DNA of 64,000 nt from Nitrosopumilus zosterae (GTDB lineage: Archaea; Thermoproteota; Nitrososphaeria; Nitrososphaerales; Nitrosopumilaceae): the NCBI RefSeq assembly GCF_025998175.1, contig NZ_AP026695.1:1304760-1368759 (forward strand). Direction: 5' to 3'. Both the position numbers and the translations under genes were made by a program. Under the pieces are notes generated by a model, which did no database searches, was not told where the DNA came from, and saw only the letters and a program-made list of their open reading frames with translations. Numbering within the stretch: position 1 is the stretch's first letter; every line of letters begins with the position of its first letter. Positions 15,903 through 21,852 of the stretch are shown piece after piece.

Positions 15903-16622
15903 GTGAAGGCCATAATTTTAGCTGGCGGCAAAGGTACTAGAGGCAAACCATACACAGAATATTTTCCAAAGGCAATGTCACCAATTAATGGAAAGCCACT
16001 AATTGACTATGTCGTAAAATATCTAAAATCATTTAGTTTCATAAAAGAGATAATCATAATTTCTGATTTCACAGGATTAGGCGGACAAATCAAAAATTAC
16101 TATGAAAATCAAGAGGGCGTCACCTTTGTTCAAGATTCTCAAAGTGGTACTGGAGGGGATCTGCTTCACATCGAGAACAGACTCAAAGGCGAATCAGAAT
16201 TTGTATTATGGTTTGTAGATAACTTGTGCGCAATAGACCTAAAAAAGATGAAAGAGCAGTTTGTAGATAAAAAAAGTACTGCATGTATTGCAACAAGATC
16301 AAAAAGAAAAGAAGAAACTGGATTCGCAGTAGTCAAAGATGGAATAATTCAAGAATTCAAAGAAAAACCAGTTATGAAATTGCAGCACTCCGAATGTTTG
16401 GGAATCTACATGTTAGGGATTGATGTCATCAAAAGAATAAAGGCCAAAGCAAAACAAAAGGAGATCAATTTGTCATATGATATTTTGCAGCAACTATCAA
16501 AGGAAGGAAAAATTAGTGCGTATGACATTGGAGATGTAGAATGGATTGATGCAGAATCTCCAATGGTTTTAGAGCGAAATGGGAAAACAGTAAAGAAGAT
16601 TATAAAACAGATGGGATTTTAG
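15903..16622 (+). CDS. Sugar nucleotidyltransferase (NDP-sugar pyrophosphorylase family)
   Basis: A 239-residue single-domain nucleotidyltransferase. It opens with AIILAGGKGTRGKPYTEYFP then KAMSPINGKPLIDY, the full pyrophosphorylase signature. It also has WFVDNLCAIDL and ETGFAVV, which match substrate-binding segments. There is no left-handed beta helix, so it is not GlmU. It should join a nucleotide to a hexose-1-phosphate for glycan synthesis. A GTG at 15903 begins 4 bp after the uS9 stop, so it sits in the ribosomal transcript. It overlaps leuD on the other strand by 23 bp. Confidence 0.85.
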   Translation: MKAIILAGGKGTRGKPYTEYFPKAMSPINGKPLIDYVVKYLKSFSFIKEIIIISDFTGLGGQIKNYYENQEGVTFVQDSQSGTGGDLLHIENRLKGESEFVLWFVDNLCAIDLKKMKEQFVDKKSTACIATRSKRKEETGFAVVKDGIIQEFKEKPVMKLQHSECLGIYMLGIDVIKRIKAKAKQKEINLSYDILQQLSKEGKISAYDIGDVEWIDAESPMVLERNGKTVKKIIKQMGF

Positions 16623-17184
16623 AGTTCTTTTCAAACTCTGTAATTTTATCTTCGTATTGAAAAGTCTGTGCAATATCATCTAATCCCTCTAAGAGAATCT
16701 TTTTCAAATGAGAGTCAATATCAAAATGAATTTCTTGAGAGGAAGTTTTGATGGTTTGGTTTTTCAAGTCTACGCTGATGGGATCTTTTTCGTTTTGAAG
16801 TGAATCAACTGTTTTTTCATCAAGGGAAATTGGCAGGATTCCATTTTTGAAGCAGTTGCTAAAGAAGATATCAGCAAAAGATGGTGCGATTATTACTGAA
16901 AAACCATAGTCTTTTAGAGCCCAAACGGCATGTTCACGACTAGAACCGCATCCAAAATTATCACCGGTAACTAAGATTTTAGATCCGTCATACTTTGACT
17001 CATTTAAGACAAAATCAGATTTTTTGTTTCCATTTTCGTCATATCTCCAATTAAAAAACAAGAACTTTCCAAATCCAGACTTTTGAACAAGTTTAAGGAA
17101 TTGCTTTGGAACAATTTGATCAGTATCAACATTTACTTTATCAAGTGGTGTGACAATGCCGGATATATTTTGAAACGGTTCCAT
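16600..17184 (-). CDS. leuD: 3-isopropylmalate dehydratase small subunit (bacterial type)
   Basis: A 194-residue swivel domain of the aconitase family. QFLKLVQKSGFGKFLFFNWRY and [18 protein letters not shown] match bacterial LeuD. With LeuC it interconverts 2- and 3-isopropylmalate in leucine synthesis. It is the fourth gene of a four-gene leftward leuCD-leuCD operon. Confidence 0.9.
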   Translation of the reverse strand: MEPFQNISGIVTPLDKVNVDTDQIVPKQFLKLVQKSGFGKFLFFNWRYDENGNKKSDFVLNESKYDGSKILVTGDNFGCGSSREHAVWALKDYGFSVIIAPSFADIFFSNCFKNGILPISLDEKTVDSLQNEKDPISVDLKNQTIKTSSQEIHFDIDSHLKKILLEGLDDIAQTFQYEDKITEFEKNSKIPSVL

Positions 17185-17185
17185 T

Positions 17186-18601
17186 CTAATTCAAATCCAA
17201 TTTCCTAACGTCAACGAAATGCCCGTGTATTGCAGCAGCAGCAGCCATTACTGGACTTACTAAGTGAGTTCTTCCACCAGTTCCCTGTCTTCCTTCAAAA
17301 TTTCTGTTTGAGGTACTTGCGCATCTCTCACCAGGGGATAGAATATCAGGATTCATTCCAAGACACATACTGCATCCGGCTTCTCTCCATTCAAAGTTGG
17401 CATCAATGAAGATTTTATCAAGACCCATTTCCTCTGCTTGTTTTTTTACCATTTGAGAACCTGGAACCACCATTGCTCTAACGTTTGGGGAAATTTTTTG
17501 CCCCCTTACAACTCTTGATGCTTCAATAAGATCTTCTAATCGTGCATTGGTGCATGAGCCAATGAACACTCGGTCGATTTTTATTTCTTCAATCGGAGTT
17601 CCGGGTTTAAGATCCATGTAATCAAGTGCTTTTTGTGCACCCTTCTTTTGATTGGGATCACCTTTTGAATAATCATCTGGAGATGGAATTGATTCAGTTA
17701 CATCACAAGTCATTCCAGGATTTGTTCCCCAACTAACTTGAGGTGCAATATCATCAATGTGTAAAGTGAATTGTTTTTCAAATTTTGCATCAGCATCAGT
17801 CTTCAGATATACTTTCCATGTGTCAACTAGAGACTCGTAATTTCTCGGAGTGTACTTTCGGCCCCTTAGGTAATCAAAGGTTTTCTCATCAGGCGCAATC
17901 AAACCTGCTCTTGCGCCTGCCTCGATGGACATATTGCATATCGTCATCCTCTGCTCCATTGATAGATCCTCTATTCCCTCTCCCCTGTACTCAATTACTG
18001 TGCCTGTTCCACCTCCAGTTCCAATATTTTTGATAATAGAAAGCACGATGTCTTTGGCAGTTACTGCATGAGGGTTCTTTCTTTTTCCCTCCACTCGGAT
18101 TTCAAAAGGTTTTGGTTTTTCTAGCCACATAGTTTGTGATGCCAATACGTGTTCCACATCACTAGTTCCAATTCCCAATGCCAATGCACCAAATGCTCCA
18201 TGAGTTGAGGTATGACTGTCGCCGCAGACAATTGTAGAGCCAGGTAAAGTAATCCCCAACTGAGGTCCAATCACATGTACTATTCCCTGATTTGGGCTGT
18301 TAATATCAAATAGGGTAATTCCAAAATCTTTGCAATTTTTTTCTAGTGTTTGAATTTGAACAGCAGATGTTTGATCCAATATTGGCAGAGATCTATCATT
18401 TGTTGGAACATTATGATCCATGGTAGCTATAGTAAGATCAGGTCGGCGAACCTTTCTGTTATTCATTCTTAATCCATCAAAAGCCTGAGGAGATGTTACT
18501 TCATGTACTAAGTGTCTGTCAATGTAAATTAGAGAAGGACTGTTTGGTTTTTCAACTATAACATGAGATTCCCAGATTTTTTCAAAAAGAGTTTTACCCA
18601 T
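17186..18601 (-). CDS. leuC: 3-isopropylmalate dehydratase large subunit (bacterial type)
   Basis: A 471-residue 4Fe-4S dehydratase. Motifs include [44 protein letters not shown] and [10 protein letters not shown], giving the three cluster Cys. Length and NRNFEGRQG fit bacterial LeuC. The ATG at 18601 is preferred; a longer frame to 18646 adds 15 residues that overlap the preceding small-subunit gene. It is directly followed by its small subunit. Confidence 0.9.
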
Positions 18602-18602
18602 T

Positions 18603-19094
18603 TTAATCCTGGTCAGGCTTGTACTTGAAGAGACCACCTGCAGCAATAATTTTCCCTATAATTTCTGAGAATGGTTTCATTGTGTAGGTCTGGTTTTTTG
18701 TAATATTTTTAATTTCATTTGCAGATAGATTAATTTCAACTTCGTCGCCTTCTGCAATTCCATCATATGCATCTTGTTCAATTTCAATTGGCAACAAAAA
18801 TGCACCATCTACTGCATTTCTGTAAAAAATTCTTGCAAAAGATAATGCAAGTACTGCCTTTATTCCTGAATGAGACAATGCAATTGGCGCATGTTCTCTA
18901 CTTGAGCCACATCCAAAATTCTTTCCAGATAAAATAAAATCGCCTTCTTTTACTTTTGAATGAAAGTCAGGATCGAGTCCCTCCATTGCATGAGTTGCAA
19001 GTTCTGCATAATCATGTACCTTGAGATACTGACCTGGGATAATTACATCAGTGTCGATGTTATCTTGAGCATATTTTATGATATTTCCTTTCAT
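18603..19094 (-). CDS. Aconitase-family small subunit (archaeal LeuD/LysU/homoaconitase type)
   Basis: A 163-residue swivel domain of archaeal size. [23 protein letters not shown] and [18 protein letters not shown] are the substrate-loop and hinge motifs. The loop residues after the first Tyr (YLKV) lie where archaeal enzymes differ between isopropylmalate and homoaconitate, so the substrate cannot be fixed by eye. It overlaps its large subunit by 4 bp. Confidence 0.85.
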
Positions 19095-20362
19095 TCTAAA
19101 TCCCTCGGATCAGTAATTTTGCCAGTAACTGCAGAAGCAGCTGCGACCAGTGGAGAAGCAAGATACGTCTGAGATTCAACATGCCCCATTCTGCCAGGAA
19201 AATTTCTGTTTGTAGTACTTATGCAGATTTCATCTTTTGCCAATACTCCCATATGTGCACCGCAGCAAGCACCACATGTAGGTGGACCTACTGTCGCTCC
19301 AGCATCAAGAAATATTTTCAATAATCCATTCTCCATTGCACGTTTGTAAATTGAAATTGCTGCAGGTAAAATTTCAGTTCTAATCTTCACTGTTCTTCCT
19401 TTGAGAATTCTTGCAGCTGCTTCCAAGTCTTCATATTTTGCTCCAGTACAAGAGCCAATGTATGATTTGTCCAATTCAACATTTGGAGATTCCCGTACAA
19501 TTGAAACATTTTCAGGAGAAAATGGTTTTGCAATAGTTGGCTCCATCTCTGATGCTTCATACTCAAAAATTTTGGAATACTCTGCATCATCATCTCCTTT
19601 AATTAAATTAAAATTCGTAGCGCCTCGGCTTGAAAGATAATCAACTACTTTTTGGTCTGGCTCCACAATTCCATTTTTTGCACCAGCCTCTGTAGTCATA
19701 TTACACATTGTCAATCTGCTCTCAACAGACATTGCATCGATTCCGCTTCCACCAAACTGCATTGTTCGGTATGCACCACCATCAGTTCCAATATCCCCGA
19801 TAATTTTTAGAATCAAATCTTTGGCCATAATATGATCTGGCAATTTTCCATTTAGCTTAAAATACATAGTTTCTGGAACCTTGAACCAAATCTTTCCGTT
19901 TAACAAAACATATGCAACATCAGTGTGTCCCAGTCCACATGCAAATGCACCTAATGCGCCAGTAGTATTTGTATGAGAATCTCCTCCCACATACACATCT
20001 CCAGGCATCACCATTGCCTCTTCATGAGAAATAGTATGACAAATTCCATATTGCCCCATTCCATACTTGAAGTGTTTTTCAATTCCATACTGTTTAGTAA
20101 AATTTGATAGTTTCGCAATATTTTCAGCTGATACTTTTTCAGCAGATGGCACAAAATGATCTTCGGCAACCCAAACCTTGGTAGGATCCCATAATTTGTC
20201 AACCGAGATTCCTTGCTTCTTTAGTTTATCAAATACCTTGATTACGCCTGGTCCAGACACATCATGTACCATTACCTTGTCAACATTGGCAAAAACCACA
20301 TCATCAGGGGCAACTGATGATTTTCCAGAAGCACGTGCAAGAATCTTCTCAGCAATATTCAT
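19091..20362 (-). CDS. Aconitase-family large subunit (archaeal LeuC/LysT/homoaconitase type)
   Basis: A 423-residue 4Fe-4S hydro-lyase, the length of archaeal LeuC and homoaconitase. It has GDSHTNTTGALGAFACGLG, SYIGSCTGAKYEDLE and PPTCGACCGAHMG with the cluster Cys, and STTNRNFPGRMG. It begins the four-gene operon whose second pair is of bacterial type. It is either a second isopropylmalate dehydratase or the homoaconitase of the LysW-dependent lysine route; the sequence does not decide. Confidence 0.87.
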   Translation of the reverse strand: MNIAEKILARASGKSSVAPDDVVFANVDKVMVHDVSGPGVIKVFDKLKKQGISVDKLWDPTKVWVAEDHFVPSAEKVSAENIAKLSNFTKQYGIEKHFKYGMGQYGICHTISHEEAMVMPGDVYVGGDSHTNTTGALGAFACGLGHTDVAYVLLNGKIWFKVPETMYFKLNGKLPDHIMAKDLILKIIGDIGTDGGAYRTMQFGGSGIDAMSVESRLTMCNMTTEAGAKNGIVEPDQKVVDYLSSRGATNFNLIKGDDDAEYSKIFEYEASEMEPTIAKPFSPENVSIVRESPNVELDKSYIGSCTGAKYEDLEAAARILKGRTVKIRTEILPAAISIYKRAMENGLLKIFLDAGATVGPPTCGACCGAHMGVLAKDEICISTTNRNFPGRMGHVESQTYLASPLVAAASAVTGKITDPRDLE

Positions 20363-20501: not shown

Positions 20502-20711
20502 TTACATATTCTGATTTTCTAAAACTTTCTTTACAGAATTCAGATATTGTTTTCTAGTCGTAGGTATTGATCTCCATTTTGATACCATTATTTCATCTAA
20601 AATTTCATAGACTTGAGTGATTTCGGTACCGGATTCCAGTTTGTCTCTTGCAATATTTGCCAATTCTTGTATTCGTAATTGTCTTCTCCAAGTTTGCACA
20701 CAGTCAGCCAT
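20502..20711 (-). CDS. Conserved hypothetical protein, 69 aa
   Basis: A small helical protein opening with MADCVQTWRRQLRIQELAN and containing EITQVYEILDEIMVSKWRSIPTTRK split across two helices. The C-terminus resembles a small helix-turn-helix, but no family is recognised. It stands alone between the leu operon and the GGQ protein. There is an ATG start and no membrane segment. Confidence 0.6.
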   Translation of the reverse strand: MADCVQTWRRQLRIQELANIARDKLESGTEITQVYEILDEIMVSKWRSIPTTRKQYLNSVKKVLENQNM

Positions 20712-20787: not shown

Positions 20788-21852
20788 TTACTTTATTTTG
20801 TATCTAAGAATGGCTATAACTGAATTATCAAGTTCTAGTTTTTGGATAATTTTTGGAGAAGATGCAAACTCTATTTTGCATGAGGTGTTTTTTGCAAGCT
20901 CCAACATTTTCATTATTTTTTTAAATTGGGAATCACTGTAATAATTTGCAGAGACAATTAGAGTATCAACTGCTCCAGTTTCCAAAGCTTTGAAGATAAC
21001 ATCATTTCTTTTTGCTGTGAGTCCTTTTTTGACTAGACTTTCATATTTTTTAATAATTTCTGCTACGTATTTTCTTCGATGCTGATAAAGATGATGAATT
21101 ATTTTCTTTTCAATGTCATTGATTGATGTTGAAAAAGACAAATTTTCTACAAACACACATTTTTTTGCCAACTCTGAATCAAGTTCATCATAGAATTCGG
21201 TTTTTGCTTGACCGTTCCCACCCAACAGAATCAAATCTGAATTCAAATCCACCTCACATAGTCTCTTTGCAATTTTCTTAAAGAAAACATGAATTTTTGT
21301 TTGCCTTGCCCTTAGGAACCTTCCCTGACTCTGTCCCCCTTTTCTATGTCTTCCTTGTAAGTCAATTCGAAGTTTTGATTCCAATACAATTTTACTTCCA
21401 TGGAATTTTTGTATTCGTGCAGATTTTTGATCTAGTGTTACTAACAAAACATCATAATTGGTTTTCAAAATATCTTTGAATGGTTTGATGAATGGTTTTT
21501 TGCTTGCCATGTATACATATGGGAGTTTTTTTGATGTCCCAATCACTTTGATGTTTACTTTGTTGTTTTTTATCCATCCAAAAATACACAGTGTTTTTGC
21601 AAACTTGCCTACAGAAATTGGGTTGTCTTTGAGATCTGCAATTTTTTGTTCAATTTTTGATTCAATTTTTTCAAAGAATTCATTTCGCTTTGTTTCTTCT
21701 AGCAAAGACATAGTTTCTTGTCCCTTGCCATACGGATAATACACAGATACGCACAAAGTATCAATCTGTTTAACTTCATACAGAAATCGGTTAATTGATA
21801 GCCACTCAGAAGGAGAAATGCCAGTATTGGAATTATTTTTCACACAATACAA
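20788..21852 (-). CDS. aRF1/Vms1-like release-factor homologue with GGQ motif
   Basis: A 354-residue protein with the three-domain order of archaeal release factor 1. An N-terminal domain spans about 1-125. The middle domain contains GRHRKGGQSQGRFLRAR with GGQ at residues 172-174. A C-terminal L7Ae-like domain contains LETGAVDTLIVSANY. GGQ is the loop that hydrolyses peptidyl-tRNA. The N-domain lacks the NIKS and YxCxxxF motifs that read stop codons. The layout therefore fits the Vms1-like (VLRF1) group, which acts on stalled large subunits or uncharged peptidyl-tRNA, rather than the canonical aRF1. The family placement is inference from motif context. Confidence 0.75.
   Translation of the reverse strand: MYCVKNNSNTGISPSEWLSINRFLYEVKQIDTLCVSVYYPYGKGQETMSLLEETKRNEFFEKIESKIEQKIADLKDNPISVGKFAKTLCIFGWIKNNKVNIKVIGTSKKLPYVYMASKKPFIKPFKDILKTNYDVLLVTLDQKSARIQKFHGSKIVLESKLRIDLQGRHRKGGQSQGRFLRARQTKIHVFFKKIAKRLCEVDLNSDLILLGGNGQAKTEFYDELDSELAKKCVFVENLSFSTSINDIEKKIIHHLYQHRRKYVAEIIKKYESLVKKGLTAKRNDVIFKALETGAVDTLIVSANYYSDSQFKKIMKMLELAKNTSCKIEFASSPKIIQKLELDNSVIAILRYKIK

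Follow-up and report, generated by a model that had tools for sequence, protein, structure and literature searches.

Within the aeRF1 superfamily, domains that bear a GGQ loop hydrolyze peptidyl-tRNA. Stop codons are read by the NIKS and YxCxxxF motifs, and NIK is universal in decoding aRF1 and eRF1 proteins (PMC2613156). Vms1 catalyzes codon-independent release on the 60S subunit (PMC5989216). What defines the VLRF-1 clade is that its members have lost the Pelota domain at the C terminus and have a longer catalytic loop; an N-terminal coiled coil is the hallmark of aVLRF-1, and GGxSQ is the motif of aVLRF-1 and acVLRF-1 (PMC6514570). In the open-access literature, we found no description of a dedicated factor that acts after Pelota in archaea to release the nascent chain from a stalled ribosome, and no named thaumarchaeal aRF1 paralog.

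The gene described here lies on the minus strand of a 64,000-nt stretch of DNA (the window; coordinates are positions within it, and features are those of the minus-strand gene unless stated otherwise). Its product appears, with a probability that we put at about 0.58, to be an aeRF1-superfamily protein that hydrolyzes peptidyl-tRNA independently of the codon and acts on stalled ribosomes or 50S subunits. What we observed is a conserved catalytic loop, the disappearance of the decoding elements, an N-M-C fold, separate aRF1 and Pelota proteins in the same genome, and purifying selection, and codon-blind peptidyl-tRNA hydrolysis in ribosome rescue would be the most economical reading of this combination. 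A rescue role is suggested because the peptide-cutting part has been kept and every known stop-codon-reading element has been lost; ribosome binding, hydrolysis, and a stalled state as the substrate are what we infer from the sequence. Many ammonia-oxidizing archaea possess such a second, release-factor-like protein beside their normal stop-codon release factor, and it may free proteins stuck on stalled ribosomes.

The open reading frame at 20788 to 21852 in the original prediction was confirmed; it is on the minus strand, where it runs from a TTG at 21852 to 20788 and encodes 354 aa. Since two relatives (L006 and L011) show an ATG at the codon aligned with the GTG at 21843, this GTG is the likely start, giving a codon-blind aRF1-like gene at 20788..21843 that encodes 351 aa. 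The host genome is a single contig of 1.775 Mb, 99.95% complete, and Nitrosopumilus-type archaea are the source of the protein's named relatives. Directly downstream lies a 69-aa open reading frame (20502 to 20711, minus strand) that stays with the gene and cofE in several close relatives. The pairing with cofE and this small frame is common to close relatives only; no conserved operon with translation genes was found, the gene standing alone in several different neighborhoods. Elsewhere in the window, at 16600 to 20362 (minus strand), are two adjoining aconitase-family large/small subunit pairs, leuC/leuD-like, of 486 plus 194 aa and 423 plus 163 aa.

We aligned 31 members of the window-protein family with 17 canonical aRF1s. 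In this alignment and in the structural model, the N-terminal domain (21490..21819) shows the scaffold of aRF1 domain 1 minus its decoding elements. At the D31/T32 junction (21757..21762), a 3-residue gap in the alignment marks the missing GTS element ("GxGTELIS"). The stop-codon-reading loop GTAxNIK is absent from both alignment and model at the T54/K55 junction (21688..21693), leaving a 7-residue gap in every family row shown. YMASKKPF (21490..21513) stands where the canonical YxC/TxxxF aligns, and the family reads Y-M-A-S-K-K-P-F/Y at this site. In the AlphaFold model (48 rows, pLDDT 82.8, pTM 0.57), a short turn between helices 41 to 50 and 55 to 73 (351-aa numbering) replaces the tip of the NIKS hairpin. 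Among the canonical aRF1s examined, NIK was present in 40/40 and YxC/TxxxF in nearly all. The absence of NIKS and YxCxxxF, as originally claimed, is thus borne out. A string "NIK" at NNKVNIKVIGTS was rejected as a decoding loop, being out of place and not conserved; "YHTNSQF" in some relatives, the sole match to the YxC/TxxxF pattern, lies in the C domain and was dismissed as a coincidence. The N domain also has invariants peculiar to the family, namely, E16, W17, N21, and CxFGW at 89 to 93.

Apart from the decoding elements, the family can be aligned with canonical aRF1 along the whole of its N, M, and C domains. The GGQ loop is intact, as predicted: GRHRKGGQSQGRF (21316..21354, residues 167 to 179 of the 354-aa frame) was found as an exact match, and the family loop has canonical length, with no insertion relative to canonical aRF1 in the alignment. 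The C-terminal Pelota/eRF1_3-type domain (20791..21027), recognized by profile, alignment, and model, lacks the zinc minidomain. With Pfam, the window protein scores 51.6 bits for eRF1_2 and 22.8 bits for eRF1_3, under the cutoff of 25.8 (19.4 to 32.3 bits across the family); eRF1_1 was undetected in it and scores 73.5 in the canonical aRF1 of the same genome. The full aRF1 domain order of the original prediction is nevertheless upheld by the alignment, by a full-length profile match to 3agk (A. pernix aRF1), and by the best PDB fold match of the model, aRF1 4af1 (E 6.5e-17, 408 columns). Next among the fold matches come Balon (8v9j, E 6.1e-16) and also eRF1. The first domain helix of the model starts at residue 11, with no long coiled coil at the N terminus.

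The possibility that this is the only RF1 in the genome proved false because a separate canonical aRF1 sits in the same complete genome (425 aa, C1:881252-882475), with NIKS, YRCDDHF, GGQ, and the C-domain cysteine pairs. On TIGR03676 (cutoff, 234.7 bits), this protein scores 415.5 and the window protein 80.7; exactly one protein in the genome lies above this aRF1 equivalog cutoff. A canonical aRF1 above the cutoff was found in 11/11 genomes checked (as a fragment in G619), among them that of the window and eight more in which the family gene is intact or broken. The same genome encodes Pelota (TIGR00111, 180.7 bits against a cutoff of 177.65; the window protein gave no match to this model) and an NFACT/RqcH homolog, NFACT being found in genomes both with and without the codon-blind gene. 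An intact canonical aRF1 is elsewhere accompanied by a second aRF1-like fragment (G633:C124:5415-6134), which is degenerate and contains three stops.

In two trees, the window-protein family forms one clade (support, 100/100 and 100/99) that lies outside the decoding aRF1s and human eRF1 (70/69 and 63/95; 86/92 for the M domain alone). The references for human eRF1 and for the Vms1 fragment were checked against PDB chains. Nesting of the family with Nitrosopumilaceae aRF1 was rejected (p-AU 0.029). The anticipated position outside decoding aRF1 was therefore recovered in all trees, with moderate support, and a joint clade of the family with all Nitrososphaeria aRF1s was not rejected (p-AU 0.37 and 0.135), the branch to aRF1 being long.

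The window protein reached no NCBIfam cutoff. On the eRF1_2 and acVLRF1 profiles, respectively, the genome's canonical aRF1 scores 104 and 21 bits, the window protein 52 and 37, and family members with a GGWSQ loop 35 to 38 and 50. The corresponding values are 22 and 73 for L191 (817-1959, minus strand, in its own sequence), an aVLRF-1-type protein from another Thermoproteota class that has a coiled coil and GGSSQ and lacks the C domain. The profile scores of the family are intermediate between those of canonical aRF1 and L191. No other aVLRF-1-type protein was found in 11 other genomes of the class of L191, and L191, the sole VLRF-1 row in the tree, could not be placed because it is too divergent (branch of 4.9; joint clade with the family, p-AU 0.187). 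The family M domain lies above the Pfam acVLRF1 cutoff, at 37 to 50 bits, and the window protein scores 45.6 on PF18854 (baeRF-1 family 10), over the cutoff of 27.1. We rejected either match as proof of family, because canonical aRF1s pass these profiles too (up to 58 bits for acVLRF1; 30.9 on PF18854 for a crenarchaeal canonical aRF1). The window protein scores 23.2 bits on acVLRF1_NCBI, for which the cutoff is 125. Searches for bacterial baeRF10 and acVLRF-1 returned only haloarchaeal aRF1 from plasmids (tblastn) and only weak short matches from Pseudomonadota genomes.

We collected 93 distinct family sequences, and many of these relatives come from metagenome-assembled genomes. The loop GRH[RK]KGGQSQxRF is near-invariant across them. 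Nitrosopumilaceae members carry GGQSQ, L186 and L187 carry GGQSA, and the sisters of the latter two, L020 and L188, carry GGWSQ; these four are closely related, yet their sole loop glutamine stands at different sites (GGQ versus GGxSQ). No member with a readable loop has lost both glutamine positions. The occurrence of GGQSA, GGQSQ, and GGWSQ in one family therefore places the glutamine at either the aRF1 or the aVLRF-1/acVLRF-1 position. The GGQSQ of the window protein fits GGxSQ, but this motif is not diagnostic of VLRF-1, because the canonical aRF1s of A. pernix and other Thermoproteia also carry GGQSQ, and the second glutamine was rejected as proof of VLRF-1 on these grounds. In eVLRF-1 and bVLRF-1, the corresponding motif is GxuQ.

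The gene is present in 53/300 genomes of the order, mostly in Nitrosopumilaceae and in a few genomes of three other family-level groups. A scan of 398 genomes of the phylum gave no match near the family's scores outside the window's family-level group, the matches listed beyond it being aRF1-sized frames with E ≥ 3e-27. The codon-blind factor is dispensable, because the gene is absent from 7/28 sampled genomes of the genus and is frameshifted or interrupted in others, including G018, G268, and G291; such a scattered occurrence speaks against an essential role. Where the gene is intact, it is under purifying selection (median dN/dS, 0.08 over 73 pairs; values of 0.05 to 0.14), and these values together with the 93 distinct relatives show that the gene is not a chance reading frame. 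No family member was found in the viral contigs searched, and a viral origin was rejected. Two different copies, L080 and L081, lie on one metagenome-derived contig (JAJCXK010000088.1), reflecting either duplication or chimeric assembly. Family genes also occur on contigs labeled Candidatus Rhodobacter lobularis (L117) and Woeseiaceae bacterium (L121), which are probably archaeal contamination.

In the mechanism that we propose, the tRNA-shaped three-domain protein would enter the empty A site when a ribosome has stalled and no stop codon can be read or, alternatively, would target the 50S-peptidyl-tRNA remaining after splitting by Pelota/ABCE1. Its GGQ(SQ) loop would then reach the peptidyl-transferase center, where the peptidyl-tRNA would be hydrolyzed and the unfinished chain freed. 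Because the C domain is retained, action on the whole 70S ribosome, with delivery or recycling by EF1A/ABCE1, would be no less likely than a Vms1-like reaction on the bare 50S subunit; the NFACT homolog in the genome keeps a 50S-only role in play.

The assignment to a Vms1-like family is a part of the original prediction that found no support: the C domain is kept, the loop is not longer, and a coiled coil is lacking. Neither the profile matches with E ≤ 10 nor the 50 fold matches listed for the model include a Vms1 chain, and the aVLRF-1-type protein L191 is built quite differently. The PDB does hold Vms1 entries, as a fragment search showed. Membership in the VLRF-1/Vms1 clade is thus not supported; what the original prediction retains is the separate aRF1, the position outside decoding aRF1s (with moderate support), and codon-blind rescue as the most economical reading. 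The protein might nevertheless be a functional counterpart of Vms1, with the archaeal NEMF/RqcH homolog as its partner and the 50S-peptidyl-tRNA left by splitting as its sole substrate; it would then be the step of an archaeal RQC pathway that releases the nascent chain. This is possible but unlikely: the loss of the decoding elements, a loop that satisfies GGxSQ, an M domain above the acVLRF1 cutoff (acVLRF1 even beating eRF1_2 in GGWSQ members), and the NFACT homolog in the genome are to be weighed against the retained C domain, the unlengthened loop, the failure of both searches to return Vms1, the 58 bits that acVLRF1 reaches on canonical aRF1, and the presence of NFACT with or without the codon-blind gene. 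Similarly doubtful is the evolutionary reading in which the family preserves a transition from aRF1 to VLRF-1, with codon reading lost, the C domain kept, and the glutamine moving from GGQ (GGQSA) through GGQSQ to GGxSQ (GGWSQ).

An improbable alternative is a hibernation or protection factor, a Balon-like plug of the A site that leaves mRNA unread and keeps GGQ for contact with the peptidyl-transferase center. Balon is the next-best fold match, and both Balon models of NCBIfam (NF052289 and NF052287) match the window protein, at 36 and 31.5 bits, but these scores are far under the cutoffs of 320 and 330; Balon itself has no GGQ (PMC10901736), and the almost invariant loop of the family makes a hibernation role less likely. 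Such a role is still worth examining: no hibernation factor is known from Nitrosopumilaceae, and the survey for archaeal Balon required candidates to lack GGQ and would therefore have discarded this protein (PMC13324472). The family's own N-domain invariants could point to a specialized termination factor that recognizes some codon or context via a rebuilt N domain; with all three known decoding elements gone and a canonical aRF1 in 11/11 genomes checked, we consider this very improbable. Least credible of all is a decaying recent duplicate of thaumarchaeal aRF1. Its patchy distribution and the broken copies would fit, but identity to canonical aRF1 is only 22 to 26% in the alignment, and a recent pseudogene or duplicate is rejected by the dN/dS values of the intact copies and by the p-AU of 0.029 for nesting with Nitrosopumilaceae aRF1.

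For the preferred reading, a codon-blind rescue hydrolase, a conserved GGQ protein without a decoding loop in widespread marine archaea would make the question of release after Pelota testable with one protein. The catalytic glutamine occurs at the aRF1 position and at the VLRF-1 position within a single family; if the transition outlined above were true, this family would both release chains from stalled ribosomes in archaea and serve as a model for the origin of Vms1-type enzymes. The family also shows what is missed by surveys in which the absence of GGQ is the criterion for special aeRF1 proteins, such as the archaeal Balon search.

Compared with known systems, the window protein shares with the VLRF-1 clade (Vms1/ANKZF1, bVLRF-1, acVLRF-1, and aVLRF-1; PF18859, NF041024) the lack of stop-codon motifs, a loop readable as GGxSQ, and an M domain above the Pfam acVLRF1 cutoff, but it differs in its C domain, its unlengthened loop, and the absence of a coiled coil or ZnF. 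Pelota/Dom34 is likewise a codon-independent aeRF1 relative without NIKS or YxCxxxF, but it differs in its N domain, lacks GGQ, and is separately encoded in the genome. Balon/Rv2629 has the three-domain aeRF1 fold without NIKS and is a close fold match, the difference being the GGQ that is present and conserved in the window protein. In the baeRF-1 clade, the N-M-C order is for the most part preserved, and family 10 is notable for retaining the glutamine (PMC6514570). Thermoproteia aRF1s similarly have a C domain without the zinc minidomain, but unlike the window-protein family, they have kept NIK and YxTxxxF. From canonical aRF1, the window protein is set apart by an identity of 21 to 26% and by the absence of the NIK loop, the GTS element, and YxC/TxxxF. 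With its N-M-C architecture and the length of its GGQ loop, it nevertheless finds its best match in both sequence and fold among the aRF1/eRF1 proteins (TIGR03676; 3agk/3vmf; 4af1).
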